64,000 bases of DNA from Marinobacter sp. HL-58 (GTDB lineage: Bacteria; Pseudomonadota; Gammaproteobacteria; Pseudomonadales; Oleiphilaceae): the NCBI RefSeq assembly GCF_001314605.1, contig NZ_LIHP01000018.1:186001-250000 (forward strand). Reading direction: 5' to 3'. The translations under genes and the position numbers were made by a program. This document shows, piece after piece, positions 286 to 63,719 of this stretch; position 1 is the first letter of the stretch; each line of letters begins with the position of its first letter. A model generated the notes under the pieces. That model made no database searches. It was not told the DNA's origin and saw only the letters and a list, made by a program, of their open reading frames with translations.

Positions 286-298
286 ATATATTAGCGGA

Positions 299-403
299 GC
301 CGGATTGTGAGGCCCGTTCAAAACCCTGCGGAGCCATGGATGGCGGAGCGGAGCGTACAGGGATGTATTCACAGCGTGTTTTGAACGGGCCTCACAATCC
401 GGC
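299..403 (+). repeat. Covarying hairpin repeat, copy 1
   Basis: The arms at 299-324 and 378-403 are 26 bp long and perfectly complementary. The core holds a first small hairpin at 333-344 (GCCA-TGGA-TGGC) and a second at 356-367 (TACA-GGGA-TGTA). The second contains GTACAGGGATGT, an exact match to the known CsrA selection consensus RUACARGGAUGU. The element lies between acr3 and the GAPDH gene in their sense orientation and ends 39 nt before the GAPDH start codon. I see no target-site duplication. Confidence 0.93.
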
Positions 404-442
404 GCCCTGCACCCAACCAGGACCCATTCAAAGGAGCTCGAC

Positions 443-2799: not shown

Positions 2800-2910
2800 G
2801 CATCGGTGCGGGACACCTGTCGCAAACCGTGGAGCGCCAGGGATGGCGCGACCGAGCCCTACAGGGACGTATTTACGGGCGTGTTTGCGACAGGTGTCCC
2901 GCACCGATGC
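2800..2910 (+). repeat. Covarying hairpin repeat, copy 2
   Basis: Perfect 28-bp arms at 2800-2827 and 2883-2910. The first core hairpin is longer than usual (2834-2849, six base pairs GCGCCA/TGGCGC around a GGGA tetraloop). The second carries ACAGGGACGT at 2861-2870 and is closed by GCCC/GGGC (2856-2859 with 2877-2880), a pairing absent from most copies. It sits between convergent arsJ and the patatin gene, 37 nt beyond the patatin stop codon and directly after the REP-like doublet. Confidence 0.92.
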
Positions 2911-11601: not shown

Positions 11602-11919
11602 ATGAGTTCAAACTATCTGACCACCGAACAGAACGAACGCCTGCGGCGGTGGGAGGCCTGGAACAAGGGCTATTTCATTTTTGCGTTCTTTTCGCTGATT
11701 GTCATCCTGGTGTTCAGCAGCCAGCTTGGGCTTTCCACTGGTGAGAGCTGGGGGCCGCTGGGCGTTCTCATTGCGCTGTTGATTACCCCCATTATCATTC
11801 TGCAGTTGCGGCTGGCCTGTCCGGCCTGTGGCCAGAAGATTGGCTGGCAGGCCAAGCTGATGGCACCTGACCAGTGCAAAGCCTGCGGTACCTTCCTCCG
11901 CTCGAAAGACTCCTCCTGA
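11602..11919 (+). CDS. Small membrane protein with C-terminal zinc-ribbon-like cysteines
   Basis: I do not recognise this 105-residue protein. It has two hydrophobic segments (about residues 24-43 and 51-72). A C-terminal cytoplasmic-looking tail carries CPACGQK and, 20 residues later, CKACGTF, which is the spacing of a zinc ribbon. The N terminus is charged. A zinc-binding membrane anchor is an inference from the four cysteines. It lies just before the MerR-type promoter of the copper block, with no clear functional tie. Confidence 0.7.
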   Translation: MSSNYLTTEQNERLRRWEAWNKGYFIFAFFSLIVILVFSSQLGLSTGESWGPLGVLIALLITPIIILQLRLACPACGQKIGWQAKLMAPDQCKACGTFLRSKDSS

Positions 11920-11927
11920 AAAAACCT

Positions 11928-11959
11928 TTGACCTGTGAGTAGCTCACAGGTTTTAGGCT
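11928..11959 (+). promoter_or_regulatory. MerR-type promoter and operator for the copper block
   Basis: The -35 TTGACC (11928-11933) and -10 TAGGCT (11954-11959) are separated by 20 bp, longer than the normal 17 and characteristic of MerR-regulated promoters. The operator is a perfect dyad, ACCTGTGAG-TAG-CTCACAGGT (11931-11951), lying over the -35 end and spacer. It points toward merR and copA. Binding by the adjacent MerR protein is inferred. Hairpin repeat copy 3 lies between this promoter and the merR start codon. Confidence 0.82.
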
Positions 11960-11998
11960 ATCCTTAATGTCTACAGCACTCATGCTTGGGTGCACTCC

Positions 11999-12108
11999 GT
12001 GGGTGGGTGGAACCATCTTCCGAAACACGCTGTAAATACGTCCATGTACGCTTGGGCTACGCCATCCATGGCTCCGCACAGTTTCGGAAGATGGTTCCAC
12101 CCACCCAC
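11999..12108 (-). repeat. Covarying hairpin repeat, copy 3
   Basis: Perfect 28-bp arms at 11999-12026 and 12081-12108, core-sense on the minus strand. The first small hairpin is at 12061-12072 (GCCATCCATGGC on the plus strand) and the second site at 12038-12047 (ACATGGACGT in core sense). The element lies inside the predicted leader of the merR-copA transcript, antisense to it, and ends 31 nt before the merR start. Confidence 0.92.
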
Positions 12109-12139
12109 TCGGCTAACTTTTGCGATGGTGATCGTAGCT

Positions 12140-12571
12140 ATGAAAGTCAAAGAGATAGCGATAGGTGCGGGCGTTAATCCGGATACCGTCCGGTTTTATA
12201 CCCGGGAAGGGTTACTGAAACCCACCCGGAATCCGGACAACAACTACCAGCAATACGATTCAGAAGACCTGCGACGGCTGCGATTTGCCCGCAAGGCCCG
12301 GCAGCTGGGGTTCTCGCTGCCGGAAATCCGCCAGATTCTGGAGCAGGCGGATGATCATCATTCGCCCTGTCCCATGGTGCGGGATGTGTTCCAGAAGCGG
12401 CTGGCGGAAGTGGAGCGGGAGATTGCCGAGTTGCAGCAGCTACGCGAGCGTATGACGGCGGCGCTATCGGCCTGGCAGGACATGCCGGACGGTACGCCGG
12501 ATGGTCATACGATTTGCCGATTGATTGAACACTGGGATGAGTCTGTCCCTGAAAATACCCGTAAGGAGTGA
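12140..12571 (+). CDS. MerR-family heavy-metal-responsive regulator
   Basis: A 143-residue MerR protein from ATG 12140 (an ATG at 12125 would add five residues). The N-terminal winged helix begins MKVKEIAIGAG and reaches TVRFYTREGLL. A long dimerisation helix occupies roughly residues 80-110. Metal ligands are probably Cys77 (HSPCP) and Cys126 (HTIC). The C-terminal Cys-rich loop of CueR is absent, so metal specificity is not certain; copper is inferred from the copA gene 6 nt downstream. Self-regulation through the operator at 11931-11951 is likely. The Shine-Dalgarno is weak. Confidence 0.87.
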   Translation: MKVKEIAIGAGVNPDTVRFYTREGLLKPTRNPDNNYQQYDSEDLRRLRFARKARQLGFSLPEIRQILEQADDHHSPCPMVRDVFQKRLAEVEREIAELQQLRERMTAALSAWQDMPDGTPDGHTICRLIEHWDESVPENTRKE

Positions 12572-12577
12572 TGCTCC

Positions 12578-15163
12578 ATGAATGAGAAAACCGCATTACA
12601 CCCGGCGCTGTCGATTTCCGGCGCGTCCTGTCAGGGCTGTGCGCGCAAGATTCGTAGTGCGCTGGAGCCACTGACCGGCAGTGCGGACCAGGTTGAGGTG
12701 AATCTGGATGAGCAGACGGTCGCCCTGCCCGACGGCATTGATACCCGCGAGGCCGCCCGTATCGTGACGGAGGCCGGTTATCCCGCCTCGCCCCTGGAGG
12801 AATCGTCCGCTACCGGGTCGGCATCGGAGGACGATCACTGTCATTCTGATGAGCGCCAGCCCGAACCTGAAACCGGGCGGGAATCCGAGATGGAGGAGAG
12901 TAAACAGGGGGTCGTCAATAACGGTGACCAGATCCATCTGGCGGTGACCGGCGCCACCTGTGCTTCCTGTGTAAACACCATTGAAAAGGCCCTGAAGTCG
13001 GTGGATGGCATTACCGGTGCCCATATGAACCTGGCGGACAATACCGCCACGGCCACCGGGCACGCGGACCCACAGGCGCTGATCAGGGCCGTGGAGAGCT
13101 CCGGTTACGGGGCCAGCGTGATCGAGGATCCGGATGCGGCGGATGACCAGAAGCAGCAAGAGGATCGCAAACAATACAAGAACCTGCTGGTGAAGATGGC
13201 CGTCAGTCTCGGCCTGGGTGTCGCGCTGATGGTTTACGGTATGGGCTTTGGGTCCATGATGGTCACCGAAGACAACCAGATGACCTGGCTTACGTTGGGC
13301 GTTCTGACCCTCGGTGTGATGGTTGCCACTGGCGGCCACTTCTTCACCGGCGCCTGGAAGGCCTTCCGGCATCACAATGCCAACATGGATACCCTGATTG
13401 CCCTGGGTACCGGCACCGCCTGGCTTTACTCCATTGTGGTGGCCAGTGCTCCTGATGCCTTGCCGGAGATGGCGCGGCATGTGTATTTCGAGGCGTCGGC
13501 CATGATTATCGGCCTGATCAACCTGGGCCAGGCCCTGGAGTTGCGGGCCAAGGGCAAGACGTCGGAAGCGGTACGGCGGCTGCTGGATCTTCGGGCCAGG
13601 ACGGCCCGGGTGATCCGCGATGGCGAGGAGCAGGACCTGCCGGTGGAGCAGGTACGCGCCGGCGACCATATCCGGGTGCGCCCCGGGGAGAGCCTGCCGG
13701 TGGACGGGGAAATCACCGAGGGCCATACCCGCATTGATGAAAGCATGCTCACCGGTGAGCCCATGCCCGTGAGCAAGGGTGAAGGCGACGAGGTGTCCGC
13801 CGGCACCCTGAACACCCACGGCTCGATTATCTACAAGGCCACCCGCGTCGGCAGCGAAACCGCCCTCGCCCAGATCATCCGGCTGGTCAAGAAAGCCCAG
13901 GGGTCGAAGCCTGCCATCGGGCGCCTGGCGGACAGGATTTCGTCGGTGTTCGTACCCAGTGTGATGCTGATTGCCGTGGTATCCGCACTGGTCTGGTATA
14001 ACGTCGGGCCGGAGCCGGCGGTGGTGCACATGATGGTCGCAGCCACCACGGTGCTGATCATTGCCTGCCCCTGTGCCCTGGGCCTCGCTACCCCGATGTC
14101 GGTGATGGTGGGCGTGGGCAAGGCCGCGGAATACGGCGCCCTGATCCGCCAGGGCGATGCCCTGCAGACTGCCGGCAAGCTGGACCTGGTGATTCTGGAC
14201 AAGACCGGCACGATTACCGAGGGCCATCCGGCTGTAACGCGTCTCCACGCCACGGACGAGGATTCCCGCAGGTTGCTCTCCCTGGCCGCCGGCCTCGAAC
14301 AGCACTCGGAACATCCCCTGGCAGAAGCCATCATGGCAAAAGCAAAGGATGAAGGCGCCAGCCCGGAGACAGTCACGGGCTTTGAAGCCCTCAACGGCAA
14401 GGGCGTAATGGGCGAACTGGAAGGCCAGCCCCTGCGCCTGGGCAACCGTCGCTGGCTGGAAAGCGAAGGCATTGATCTGGACGGATTACAGGATGAGGCC
14501 GATGCCATTACCTCGGAAGCGGGAACGCCACTGTTCCTGGCACTGGGTAACAAGGCGGTAGGCGTGATCGGCGTTGCCGACGCCGTGAAAGCGGATTCAC
14601 AGGCCGCGATCCGTCGCCTGCACGATGCCGGCATCCGGGTGATGATGGTCACCGGCGATGTGGACGCTACCGCCAGGGCCATTGCCCAGAAAACCGGCAT
14701 CGATGACTACCGTGCCGAGGTGTTGCCTGAAGACAAGTCCATCATCGTCAGCGAAATGCGCGGCAAGGGCTACACCGTGGCCATGGTGGGCGACGGCATC
14801 AACGACGCTCCCGCCCTGGCGGCTGCCGACGTGGGCTTTGCCATCGGCACCGGAACCGACGTGGCCATCGAAAGCGCCGGCATCACCCTGATGCGGGGAT
14901 CGCTGCACGGTGTTGCGGATGCCATTGAGATATCCCGGGCCACCGTACGTAATATTCACCAGAACCTGTTTGGTGCCTTTATCTACAACTCCATGGGTAT
15001 ACCGGTGGCCGCCGGGCTGTTATACCCTCTATGGGGAATGTTGATGAGCCCGATACTGGCCGGCGCCGCCATGTCGCTGTCCTCGGTGACGGTGGTCACC
15101 AACGCCAACCGGCTGCGGTTGTTCAAGACCAGCCATAAGGCCGGCAAGGAGGGGAACCAATGA
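12578..15163 (+). CDS. copA: Cu(I)-exporting P1B-type ATPase
   Basis: An 861-residue P-type ATPase. Two N-terminal heavy-metal domains carry CQGC (Cys18, Cys21) and CASC (Cys128, Cys131). They are joined by an acidic, His-containing linker (DDHCHSDE). Membrane helices begin near residue 205. The ion-site motif CPC is at 497-499, the phosphorylated Asp541 lies in DKTGT, and the last helices carry YNSMG and MSLSSV, the signature of the Cu(I) subgroup. It exports cytoplasmic Cu(I) across the inner membrane using ATP. It follows merR by 6 nt and overlaps the small downstream frame by 4 nt, so all are co-transcribed. Confidence 0.95.
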   Translation: MNEKTALHPALSISGASCQGCARKIRSALEPLTGSADQVEVNLDEQTVALPDGIDTREAARIVTEAGYPASPLEESSATGSASEDDHCHSDERQPEPETGRESEMEESKQGVVNNGDQIHLAVTGATCASCVNTIEKALKSVDGITGAHMNLADNTATATGHADPQALIRAVESSGYGASVIEDPDAADDQKQQEDRKQYKNLLVKMAVSLGLGVALMVYGMGFGSMMVTEDNQMTWLTLGVLTLGVMVATGGHFFTGAWKAFRHHNANMDTLIALGTGTAWLYSIVVASAPDALPEMARHVYFEASAMIIGLINLGQALELRAKGKTSEAVRRLLDLRARTARVIRDGEEQDLPVEQVRAGDHIRVRPGESLPVDGEITEGHTRIDESMLTGEPMPVSKGEGDEVSAGTLNTHGSIIYKATRVGSETALAQIIRLVKKAQGSKPAIGRLADRISSVFVPSVMLIAVVSALVWYNVGPEPAVVHMMVAATTVLIIACPCALGLATPMSVMVGVGKAAEYGALIRQGDALQTAGKLDLVILDKTGTITEGHPAVTRLHATDEDSRRLLSLAAGLEQHSEHPLAEAIMAKAKDEGASPETVTGFEALNGKGVMGELEGQPLRLGNRRWLESEGIDLDGLQDEADAITSEAGTPLFLALGNKAVGVIGVADAVKADSQAAIRRLHDAGIRVMMVTGDVDATARAIAQKTGIDDYRAEVLPEDKSIIVSEMRGKGYTVAMVGDGINDAPALAAADVGFAIGTGTDVAIESAGITLMRGSLHGVADAIEISRATVRNIHQNLFGAFIYNSMGIPVAAGLLYPLWGMLMSPILAGAAMSLSSVTVVTNANRLRLFKTSHKAGKEGNQ

Positions 15164-20858: not shown

Positions 20859-21029
20859 GGTTGTCCTGTTGTTGGTGTTTTGCGATGGGCGAATGATACC
20901 AATGGTTGGCGCATTTGGGCAGTGGCCTGAAGTGACCGGTTTGCCAATGGGGATGGACGTTCTTGCCATAGCCGCATTTGGGGTTGGCCGGTAATCTTGG
21001 CCCTAGCCTGTTAGCTGAGGAGCGATGGT

Positions 21030-21134
21030 GAGGAGGGGACAGGCCTTCGTCAGACACGCCGTGAACCCATCCATGGGGGCTCGGCATTGCCATCCCTGGC
21101 AATGCACGGTCTGCCAAAGGCCTGTCCCCTCCTC
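21030..21134 (-). repeat. Covarying hairpin repeat, copy 4
   Basis: The arms at 21030-21055 and 21109-21134 pair at 24 of 26 positions. Of the two mismatches, one is a G.U wobble in core-sense RNA and the other an A.G. The first small hairpin is extended to nine base pairs (21084-21105) around a GGGA loop. The second is CCCA-TGGA-TGGG in core sense (21066-21077), where stem bases have changed on both sides while GGA is kept. It lies in the divergent 342-bp gap between the acyltransferase and PhaC-like genes; I see no other clear feature there. Confidence 0.9.
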
Positions 21135-21199
21135 CCCTGTTACTTTTCAGATAACGCTTTCTGGCCGTCACAATGACATAAACGAAATAGATATTCTGG

Positions 21200-22407: not shown

Positions 22408-22517
22408 GCGAAGTGCGTCTATGGCTTTCCAAAACTGTGCGGAGCCAGGGATGGCGGAGCCCAAGCGTACAGGGACGTATTTACAGCGTGTTTTGGAAAG
22501 CCATCGACGCACTTCGC
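22408..22517 (+). repeat. Covarying hairpin repeat, copy 5
   Basis: The arms at 22408-22435 and 22490-22517 are 28 bp with one T.C mismatch. The first small hairpin is GCCA-GGGA-TGGC at 22444-22455; the second site is ACAGGGACGT at 22469-22478. It fills the gap between convergent genes, starting 27 nt after the PhaC-like stop and ending 11 nt before the dehalogenase stop. Confidence 0.92.
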
Positions 22518-24333: not shown

Positions 24334-24444
24334 GCGCTGGGTGTGAACCGGCCTTCTGAAACCGTGCGGAGCCATGGATGGCGGAGCCGAGCGTACAGGG
24401 ACGTATTCACAGCGTGTTTCAGAAGGCCGGTTCACACCCAGTGC
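24334..24444 (+). repeat. Covarying hairpin repeat, copy 6
   Basis: The arms at 24334-24362 and 24416-24444 pair over 29 bp with one G.U wobble in core sense. The first small hairpin is at 24371-24382 (GCCA-TGGA-TGGC) and the second site ACAGGGACGT at 24395-24404. It lies between the LysR gene and the MFS gene in their sense orientation and ends only 24 nt before the MFS start codon, the shortest such distance in the set. Confidence 0.93.
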
Positions 24445-26393: not shown

Positions 26394-26505
26394 GTGCACC
26401 GGGCGGGCGGCGTTTCACAGACTGTCTTCGGCCAAGGATGGCCGAAGTCAAGCGCACAGGGACGTGCTCGTAGCGTGTCTGTGAAACGCCGCCCGCCCGG
26501 TGCAC
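26394..26505 (+). repeat. Covarying hairpin repeat, copy 7
   Basis: Perfect 29-bp arms at 26394-26422 and 26477-26505. The first small hairpin is extended to nine base pairs (CTTCGGCCA with TGGCCGAAG, 26426-26447) around an AGGA loop, replacing the usual imperfect outer part with full complementarity. The second site is ACAGGGACGT (26456-26465) inside a GCAC/GTGC stem. It lies between tpx and the MATE gene in sense orientation, 70 nt before the MATE start. Confidence 0.93.
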
Positions 26506-34363: not shown

Positions 34364-34475
34364 GAAAGAGGTTGGGAGGCTACTGTCAAAACTGTGCGGA
34401 GCCATGGATGGCGGAGCTCAAGCGCCACATGGAAGTGCTTGAGCTTGTTTTGACAGTAGCCTCCCAACCTCTTTC
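34364..34475 (+). repeat. Covarying hairpin repeat, copy 8
   Basis: Perfect 29-bp arms at 34364-34392 and 34447-34475. The first small hairpin is at 34401-34412 (GCCA-TGGA-TGGC). The second has been rebuilt: CTCAAG (34417-34422) pairs with CTTGAG (34438-34443), with CAC/GTG inside, around ACATGGAAGT (34427-34436). It lies in the divergent gap and ends 37 nt before the NUDIX/MBL start, in its sense orientation. Confidence 0.93.
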
Positions 34476-46474: not shown

Positions 46475-46586
46475 GCGTTTGGCTGGAAGGGGCCTCCCGA
46501 AACACGCTCAAGCACATCCATGTGGCGCTTGAGCTCCGCCATCCATGGCTCCGCACAGTTTCGGGAGGCCCCTTCCAGCCAAACGC
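46475..46586 (-). repeat. Covarying hairpin repeat, copy 9
   Basis: Perfect 29-bp arms at 46475-46503 and 46558-46586. In core sense the second hairpin is ACATGGATGT (46514-46523) within CACA-TGGA-TGTG, closed by CTCAAG/CTTGAG. The first is the usual GCCA-TGGA-TGGC (46538-46549). It occupies the gap between convergent fadE and LysR genes, 8 nt from the LysR stop. Confidence 0.93.
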
Positions 46587-47690: not shown

Positions 47691-47800
47691 GAGTCAGCGG
47701 GGAAGGCCTTTCCGAAATCGTGCGGAGCCATGGATGGCGGAGCCCGAGCGTACAGGGATGTATTTACAGCGTATTTCGGAAAGGCCTTCCCCGCTGGCTC
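47691..47800 (+). repeat. Covarying hairpin repeat, copy 10
   Basis: The arms at 47691-47718 and 47773-47800 pair over 28 bp with one U.G wobble in core sense. The first small hairpin is at 47727-47738. The second site is ACAGGGATGT (47752-47761), an exact CsrA consensus match with its flanks. It lies in the divergent LysR/EamA gap and ends 41 nt before the EamA start in sense orientation. Confidence 0.93.
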
Positions 47801-53985: not shown

Positions 53986-54056
53986 TCTGGAATTGCATCC
54001 TGTTGCTGGCTTTGGGCAGTGCATTTTACATCCCTAGACTGCGAGTCCGTGCATTC

Positions 54057-54160
54057 GTAAGCGAACAGGCCTTTCCAGAACACGCTGTAAATACATCCCT
54101 GTACGCTCGGCCTCCGCCATCCATGGCTCCGGACGGTTCTGGAAAGGCCTGTCCGCTTAC
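54057..54160 (-). repeat. Covarying hairpin repeat, copy 11
   Basis: The arms at 54057-54081 and 54136-54160 pair over 25 bp with one mismatch that is a U.G wobble in core sense. The second site is ACAGGGATGT (54093-54102), an exact CsrA consensus match; the first hairpin is at 54116-54127. It lies in the 331-bp divergent tetR/fad gap, 71 nt upstream of the tetR start and in its sense orientation. Confidence 0.92.
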
Positions 54161-54197
54161 TTCGATGTTCAGCGGTGGATACGAGAACTTTAAACCA

Positions 54198-57624: not shown

Positions 57625-57657
57625 AGCTCTGTTTGCCTATTGCTTGGGTGGAGGCAC

Positions 57658-57762
57658 CTGTTGGGTAGGGGGCTCCAAAACGCGCTCCTTCGGCACATCC
57701 ATGTGACGCTCGAGCTCCGCCATCCATGGCTCCGCACGGTTTTGGAGCCCCCTACCCAACAG
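57658..57762 (-). repeat. Covarying hairpin repeat, copy 12
   Basis: Perfect 24-bp arms at 57658-57681 and 57739-57762, the shortest in the set. The second site is ACATGGATGT in core sense (57695-57704) inside a CACA-TGGA-TGTG stem. The first hairpin is at 57719-57730. It follows the thiolase gene in antisense orientation and is head-out relative to copy 13, 99 bp away. Confidence 0.92.
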
Positions 57763-57861
57763 CCGCCCATAGTTTTGTGCGATGGCCGACAGGTGCAACT
57801 TTTGAACGCTTGGCGGTAACCGCCTAATGCAACGACAAGAGCAGGCACGCACTTACTCGAA

Positions 57862-57974
57862 GCGCCGGGCGGGGAGACCCTTTCGAAACTGTGCGGAGCC
57901 AGGGATGGCGGAGCCCAAGCGTCACATGGATGTGCCGAAGGAGCGTGTTTCGAAAGGGTCTCCCCGCCTGGCGC
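57862..57974 (+). repeat. Covarying hairpin repeat, copy 13
   Basis: The arms at 57862-57889 and 57947-57974 pair over 28 bp with one G.U wobble in core sense. The first hairpin is GCCA-GGGA-TGGC (57898-57909) and the second site ACATGGATGT (57924-57933). It is 96 nt before the acyl-CoA dehydrogenase gene in sense orientation. The rest of the 447-bp gap shows no other feature I can support. Confidence 0.92.
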
Positions 57975-63683: not shown

Positions 63684-63719
63684 TACCCAATATGGGCAAA
63701 ATTTTGCCCATATTGGGTA
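63684..63719. repeat. 36-bp perfect palindrome between convergent genes
   Basis: The sequence is perfectly self-complementary over 36 bp with centre AAAA|TTTT at 63701/63702 and arm TACCCAATATGGGCAAAA. It lies 20 bp after the fic stop and 18 bp before the monooxygenase stop. With no unpaired loop it is less like a normal terminator; a bidirectional terminator or a protein-binding site are both possible. Confidence 0.7.

Follow-up and report, generated by a model that had tools for sequence, protein, structure and literature searches.

CsrB, RsmY and RsmZ occupy few loci and carry many sites per locus. Sponge RNAs of this type are described as hosting multiple sites (PMC4383904, PMC4333381); CANGGANG is given as the Rsm-binding motif, and RUACARGGAUGU is cited as the CsrA SELEX consensus (PMC6849547). 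The TwoAYGGAY motif was reported by Weinberg and colleagues from human gut, gammaproteobacteria and Clostridiales (PMC2864571) and was proposed by Gardner and Eldai as a CsrA-binding sRNA, with validation in progress (PMC4333381). REPINs are inverted REP doublets (PMC3116915). MerR-family promoters carry a strong palindrome in a spacer of 19 or 20 bp (PMC1526738).

The element analyzed here lies in the merR-copA leader of the window, the whole 64,000-nucleotide stretch of Marinobacter sp. HL-58 DNA that was studied. Like TwoAYGGAY RNA, it has an outer stem enclosing two GGA-loop hairpins; it differs in having about 150 dispersed copies, sequence-divergent but well-paired stems, divergent doublets and invertible cores. 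The passages on TwoAYGGAY in PMC2864571 and PMC4333381 leave high copy number, doublets and invertible cores unmentioned. The family shares with CsrB, RsmY and RsmZ the GGA hairpins with the CsrA/RsmA consensus and a proposed titration of the protein, and it differs from them in having many loci with two sites each. On balance, the sequence evidence leads us to favor a high-copy, dispersed, partly mobile TwoAYGGAY-related RNA repeat that probably binds CsrA. The high-copy dispersed form is the contribution of this analysis; the kind of RNA and its proposed CsrA partner are already known. A search of the open-licence literature found no description of this family.

The hairpin in the merR-copA leader

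The features of the locus are as follows.

11928..11959, + strand: MerR-type promoter, by direct reading (-35 TTGACC, 20-bp spacer, 9-bp dyad, -10-like TAGGCT)
11999..12108, - strand: focal element, perfect 28-bp stem and 54-nt core; the GGA strand is the minus strand, antisense to merR
11999..12026, no strand: left arm of the outer stem, by inverted-repeat search
12081..12108, no strand: right arm of the outer stem, by inverted-repeat search
12063..12070, - strand: CsrA/RsmA-type motif CATGGATG in the loop of inner hairpin 1, fitting the consensus CANGGANG
12039..12046, - strand: CsrA/RsmA-type motif CATGGACG in the loop of inner hairpin 2, fitting the consensus CANGGANG
12140..12571, + strand: merR-family regulator gene, ATG at 12140, by protein-family matches
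12578..15163, + strand: copA-like copper P-type ATPase gene, by protein-family matches to copper-translocating P-type ATPases

The promoter consists of a -35 TTGACC at 11928-11933, a spacer at 11934-11953 and a -10-like TAGGCT at 11954-11959, with a 9-bp operator dyad (ACCTGTGAG/CTCACAGGT) inside 11931-11951. The initial annotation had described this operator-promoter with its 20-bp spacer and perfect 9-bp dyad and had placed the merR ATG at 12140, all of which is read in the sequence. The 20-bp spacer and the dyad between -35 and -10 are those of MerR-family metal promoters of the CueR/ZntR type; the focal promoter itself is ordinary. A strict pattern for it matched 25 of 30 orthologous merR loci. 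From this arrangement, merR-copA transcription would start near 11966. A sigma-70-like promoter scan of 11800-12250 listed none; it allowed spacers of 16-18 only and was hence blind to the MerR-type promoter too. The regulator scores below the NCBIfam equivalog cut-offs for CueR, ZntR, CadR-PbrR and MerR, so its metal is not assignable by family.

The arms of the focal stem are 28 nt each and 100% complementary, with 54 nt between them. This confirms the stem and coordinates of the hairpin at 11999-12108 that had been said to fill most of the merR leader with a 28-bp stem. The two strands have folding z-scores of -9.1 and -9.3, and none of 200 shuffles was equally stable. The element had also been called antisense, which is right insofar as the conserved GGA-loop strand is the minus strand. 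An intrinsic terminator scan that allowed loops of 3-8 nt only listed none at the hairpin. A terminator role was rejected on inspection by eye, which found no T run after the stem; the loop limit of the scan would hide such a terminator. The predicted openness of 12120-12142, which includes the merR ribosome site, is 0.37 with the hairpin and 0.39 without it.

Copy number, structure and strand of the family

The window contains 13 hairpins of the family, the focal one included. Covariance model R1 was built from these 13 copies and gave the spans of the other 12, listed below with the strand that carries the GGA loops.

298..404, + strand: family copy, not anchorable in relatives
2801..2909, + strand: family copy, not anchorable in relatives
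21029..21135, - strand: family copy
22409..22516, + strand: family copy
24336..24442, + strand: family copy, with a deletion inside the stem in relative G023
26396..26503, + strand: family copy, with another hairpin type here in three relatives
34366..34473, + strand: family copy, core opposite in 5/5 relatives
46477..46584, - strand: family copy
47692..47799, + strand: family copy
54055..54162, - strand: family copy, with an inverted core in G013 and an empty site in G035, G023 and G036
57655..57765, - strand: left half of a divergent doublet
57863..57973, + strand: right half of a divergent doublet

The window also holds a 36-bp perfect palindrome, TACCCAATATGGGCAAAATTTTGCCCATATTGGGTA, at 63684-63719.

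At least 146 matches to R1 were found at E <= 0.01 in the 4.24-Mb genome, and a rescan of 15 stretches of it added one further copy (C8:426481). Extraction of 138 of the 146 matches gave 136 measured copies, two having arms too weak to measure. All 37 genomes of the genus that were searched, this one included, contain matches, with 3 to at least 67 each. Of 21 genomes that belong to the same order but to different families, 4 have matches. In a class-wide draw of 229 genomes, matches at E <= 1e-5 occur in 39 of the 228 besides this one, and in 35 of 196 genera with Marinobacter counted. An exact 22-base core pattern was searched in named genomes, and Marinobacter accounts for 73 of the 80 matches listed. 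The other seven are MAGs labelled Planctomycetota or subgroups, Kuenenia or Deltaproteobacteria (contigs L220, L239, L251, L261, L262, L277 and L293).

Copies are mostly intergenic. A simple ORF caller supplied the gene contexts, and 23 of 136 copies overlap a called ORF; these ORFs were taken, unchecked, to be mostly over-long called starts. Relative to the flanking genes, the GGA strands lie in both orientations (FF 37, FR 32, RR 27, RF 15); most copies therefore cannot be accounted for by an ordinary UTR role. The best arm identity between copies in the genome is 0.83 and the median is 0.46, compared with 0.375 for shuffled arms. Recent duplication within the genome was rejected as the source of copies because these identities are too low. 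Cores may be nearly identical where arms differ: among the 214 copy pairs whose cores share 96% identity or more, the median arm identity is 0.5.

The structure was evaluated in an alignment of 137 copies fitted to the model, in which the outer stem is 98.2% paired over 27 pairs, all 27 pairs show changes on both sides, and the inner hairpin stems are paired at 98.9% and 86.2%. The covariation score of the whole structure in this fitted alignment is 0.870, compared with 0.206 for shuffled and at most 0.161 for slid controls. Two of five measures were weak: pairs changed on both sides numbered 33 versus 31.0 shuffled (9/500), and further pair types numbered 116 versus 112.5 shuffled (81/500). 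The 12 motif positions (CA-GGA-G twice) are invariant in 137/137 aligned copies, as are columns T31 and C84, and the N positions vary. Exactly two CANGGANG motifs are present in 136/136 copies with measurable arms, the second loop base being frequently G and not Y. Hairpins with broken motifs occur at two sites in G035 and in L207.

The 24 inner stem pairs give 3264 pairings in 136 copies, of which 3153 are Watson-Crick, 74 are G-U, 4 are A-C and 33 are other combinations; 58 of the 136 copies are perfect over these pairs. G-U was counted on the GGA-loop strand, where an A-C is a G-U on the opposite strand. The G-U to A-C ratio is 20:1 in FF, 14:2 in FR, 14:1 in RR and 9:0 in RF contexts and 15:0 in copies overlapping an ORF. 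This bias, seen whatever the gene orientation, indicates that selection acts on the GGA strand, probably in the form of RNA. Selection on a double-stranded DNA palindrome could not produce such a wobble bias; selection on a folded RNA or on one folded DNA strand could.

The flanks were read as well. The motif GCGATAWCTC (at least 6 of 10 letters) accompanies 75 of 136 copies on the 5' side. A promoter within the element was considered and rejected, as this motif lacks a conserved -35 upstream, and no conserved promoter was found in the 5' flank of copies. The 3' flank of the GGA strand is A-rich and T-poor in copies of this genome, and CACCAAA and CAGCAGGCTA are common there.

The merR site across the genus

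The merR ortholog search matched all 61 genomes, 58 of them closely (E <= 1e-66), and the best 30 of the 61 loci were read. One (L098) ends 53 nt before merR, which leaves 29 evaluable leaders. In 21 of the 29 an element lies upstream of merR with its GGA strand antisense, 27-66 nt before the start codon in 20 of them. Locus L095 has a sense copy 35 nt and an antisense copy 195 nt before merR. The copy in L077 carries a large insertion inside inner hairpin 1. The other eight leaders have no intact element and keep the operator by eye: in L073 the stem persists and its core is gone, short remnants are visible by eye in L078 and L082, and the element is not intact in L079, L080, L084, L091 and L097. 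Exact removal of the core by an enzyme was considered and rejected: on our reading, both the stretch lost in L073 and the one lost at the 24336 site in G023 are bounded by short direct repeats, a pattern expected of slippage.

Stems at the merR site differ widely in sequence between species and keep their pairing. At merR identities below 84% (148 locus pairs), a mean of 11.6 stem pairs have changed on both arms and 1.1 on one arm only; at identities of 0.88-0.95 (5 pairs) the means are 5.6 and 1.2. That one-arm changes are so few fits the scarcity of G-U pairs. Presence in 21 of 29 leaders with stems diverged yet paired indicates that the element is old and maintained at the merR site, though it can be lost. 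Loci L074 and L075 have merR genes 97% identical and differ at 12 stem pairs. This pair was probably mixed by recombination, since the stem of L075 is that of L072 but for one pair.

The excess of both-arm changes between orthologs (5.6 to 1.2) is what would be expected if the arms had no selected function and were kept identical by template-switch correction of quasi-palindromes in replication, and the core inversion and internal stem deletions at other sites are typical of inverted repeats. Strand-blind correction would not leave 74 G-U against 4 A-C pairs, nor would it hold 12 loop positions invariant, and we consider this explanation highly improbable.

A cis-acting device of the merR-copA leader, whether attenuator, stabilizer or translational control, would account for the place kept between operator and merR in 21 of 29 leaders and for a structure that is conserved when sequence is not. 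This explanation has to contend with the eight leaders without an intact element, an essentially unchanged openness of the ribosome site and at least 145 other matches in the genome. The wobbles also put the selected pairing on the antisense strand: in the 21 antisense merR-leader copies, the G-U to A-C ratio is 13:1. We judge such a device unlikely.

With the ribosome site predicted to be almost equally open and the GGA strand absent from the mRNA, a specific cis role at merR-copA finds no support. In the merR mRNA, the focal hairpin is just a stable 5' stem that probably has little direct effect on translation; nothing found speaks against a mild effect of such a stem on merR mRNA decay. The initial annotation had expected the stem to affect early transcription or translation of merR-copA, and the nearly identical openness values and the eight leaders without an intact element count against it. 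It had also seen the hairpin as an element within the leader of a metal-regulated operon: the position holds and is long-standing in the genus, and the hairpin proves to be a genome-wide repeat and no device special to the operon. A perfect hairpin in a metal-operon leader thus need not belong to the control of that operon.

The proposed CsrA link and the mobile side of the family

No Rfam family exceeded its gathering score anywhere in the window. In an E-value search, RF01731 (TwoAYGGAY, clan CL00106) matched the focal copy on the minus strand over the full 168-position model with 39.8 bits (E 4e-5), below the gathering score of 43 bits. The genome gave 33 matches below this cut-off among 54 candidates scored and none above it. 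Nine listed copies exceed it; of the 38 genomes searched, 7 contain such copies, five being Marinobacter and two belonging to other genera. The control genomes gave one match, under the cut-off. The focal copy has the structure that defines TwoAYGGAY, two AYGGAY-like hairpin loops within an outer stem, and the paired CANGGANG loops expected in sequence of a CsrA/RsmA-binding RNA. A single CsrA match was found in the genome, with a length of 65 residues counted from its MLILTRRVGETL start. Rfam models of CsrB, RsmY and RsmZ gave nothing above cut-off in 23 genomes, 16 of them Marinobacter, a search with a true positive control (E. coli) for CsrB only. Weak RsmY matches occur in 9 of the 16 Marinobacter genomes, the best with 30.5 bits against a cut-off of 57.

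Gain, loss and inversion of copies were scored in 50 anchored comparisons of 11 window copies with five relatives, and an intact double-motif element was present in 32 of the 50. The site at 54055 is empty in three relatives (G035, G023 and G036); it is the one clean empty site, at which insertion and loss are both possible. Copying of the arms from the target at insertion found no support at this site, where all three relatives lack both arms. The stem at 24336 has lost its middle in G023. Two of the 11 sites have an inverted core (34366 versus five relatives, and 54055 versus G013); a strictly oriented RNA gene would not tolerate such inversion.

Close copy pairs have diverging GGA strands in 24 of 24 cases, with gaps of 39-204 nt. 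These pairs comprise 48 of 147 copies, and the rest are single. A REP doublet of another family is present in 7 of the 21 doublet spacers read. This REP-like family (CGTAGGTCGGATTAGCGAAGCGTAATCCGACA), found at 2674-2774 of the window and in some doublet spacers, forms inverted doublets and often adjoins or lies inside CsrA-type hairpin pairs. Around the copies of this genome, no terminal inverted repeats were found by eye and no GTAG tag was seen beside them. Larger repeats appear in two other genomes. In G116 (L206-L211), six copies were read, and five of them are enclosed by a repeat of about 207 bp, perhaps a MITE, whose terminal inverted repeats resemble CTAAATACGTGTTCC. In G148 (L197-L205), near-identical copies lie within larger inverted repeats, with terminal repeats recognized by eye. 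Some G148 copies carry a further GGTGCAGGGATGCACC hairpin, also with a CANGGANG loop. The divergent doublets and the larger repeats in G116 and G148 indicate that the family has a mobile side beside its maintained side.

The family resembles REPINs and MITEs in being mostly intergenic, high in copy number, arranged in inverted doublets, patchy across taxa, and gained and lost at sites. It differs in its three-way junction, which is about 110 nt long and bears two GGA loops, in stems that vary from copy to copy, and in having no demonstrated transposase partner. A REP/MITE-like DNA repeat, whose hairpin and GGA loops would be recognized by a transposase on single-stranded DNA and would not be CsrA sites, fits the high copy number, the mostly intergenic dispersal and the empty sites. 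It also fits the divergent doublets (24/24), which parallel those of REPINs (PMC3116915), the terminal inverted repeats around five of six G116 copies and the two Y1-transposase (Y1_Tnp) genes in the genome. The strand-specific pairing could likewise mark single-stranded DNA in transposition. No copy lies within the 3-kb locus of either Y1 gene. Orthologous copies keep pairing while their stems diverge, which points to selection in place, beyond transposition alone, and the motif is identical to the CsrA consensus, varying where that consensus leaves the base free. We consider a transposase-recognized DNA repeat less likely than a CsrA-binding RNA.

The CsrA-binding RNA reading starts from what is seen directly: the sequence, the covarying structure, invariant loops, strand-specific pairing, long residence at merR, high copy number across the genus, and occasional gain or loss and inversion. 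In the proposed mechanism, the minus-strand RNA would fold into an outer stem of about 28 bp holding a three-way junction and two short hairpins, each of which would expose the CsrA/RsmA recognition sequence CANGGANG in its loop. With two loops per element, one CsrA dimer could clamp one element. The GGA strand would be transcribed and bound by CsrA, and together the copies would titrate CsrA or mark transcripts as its targets. The merR-copA element would be a resident copy with its GGA strand antisense to the operon.

A wider proposal, offered tentatively, is that Marinobacter and a patchy set of gammaproteobacteria may manage CsrA/RsmA by a distributed sink and not by a few sponge genes. Such a sink would consist of about 150 partly mobile repeats per genome, each accommodating one dimer and individually dispensable, with the GGA-strand fold selected in place as the stems drift. 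Were the GGA strands transcribed and bound, dispersed repeats would occupy a large part of the CsrA capacity of these bacteria, which would change the search for CsrA regulons and sponges and join two fields, REP/MITE-type repeats and CsrA control. TwoAYGGAY-type RNAs, whose CsrA link is so far a published prediction (PMC4333381), gain a strand and many new sequences.

In G013, G023 and G016 the 26396 site is occupied by a hairpin of another type, whose outer flank is similar and whose core resembles GGGAAAAGGTGTCTGAGCGAAGCGAGTTCTTTTCCC; the stretches read for this replacement hairpin were L161-L164, L169-L172 and L177-L180.
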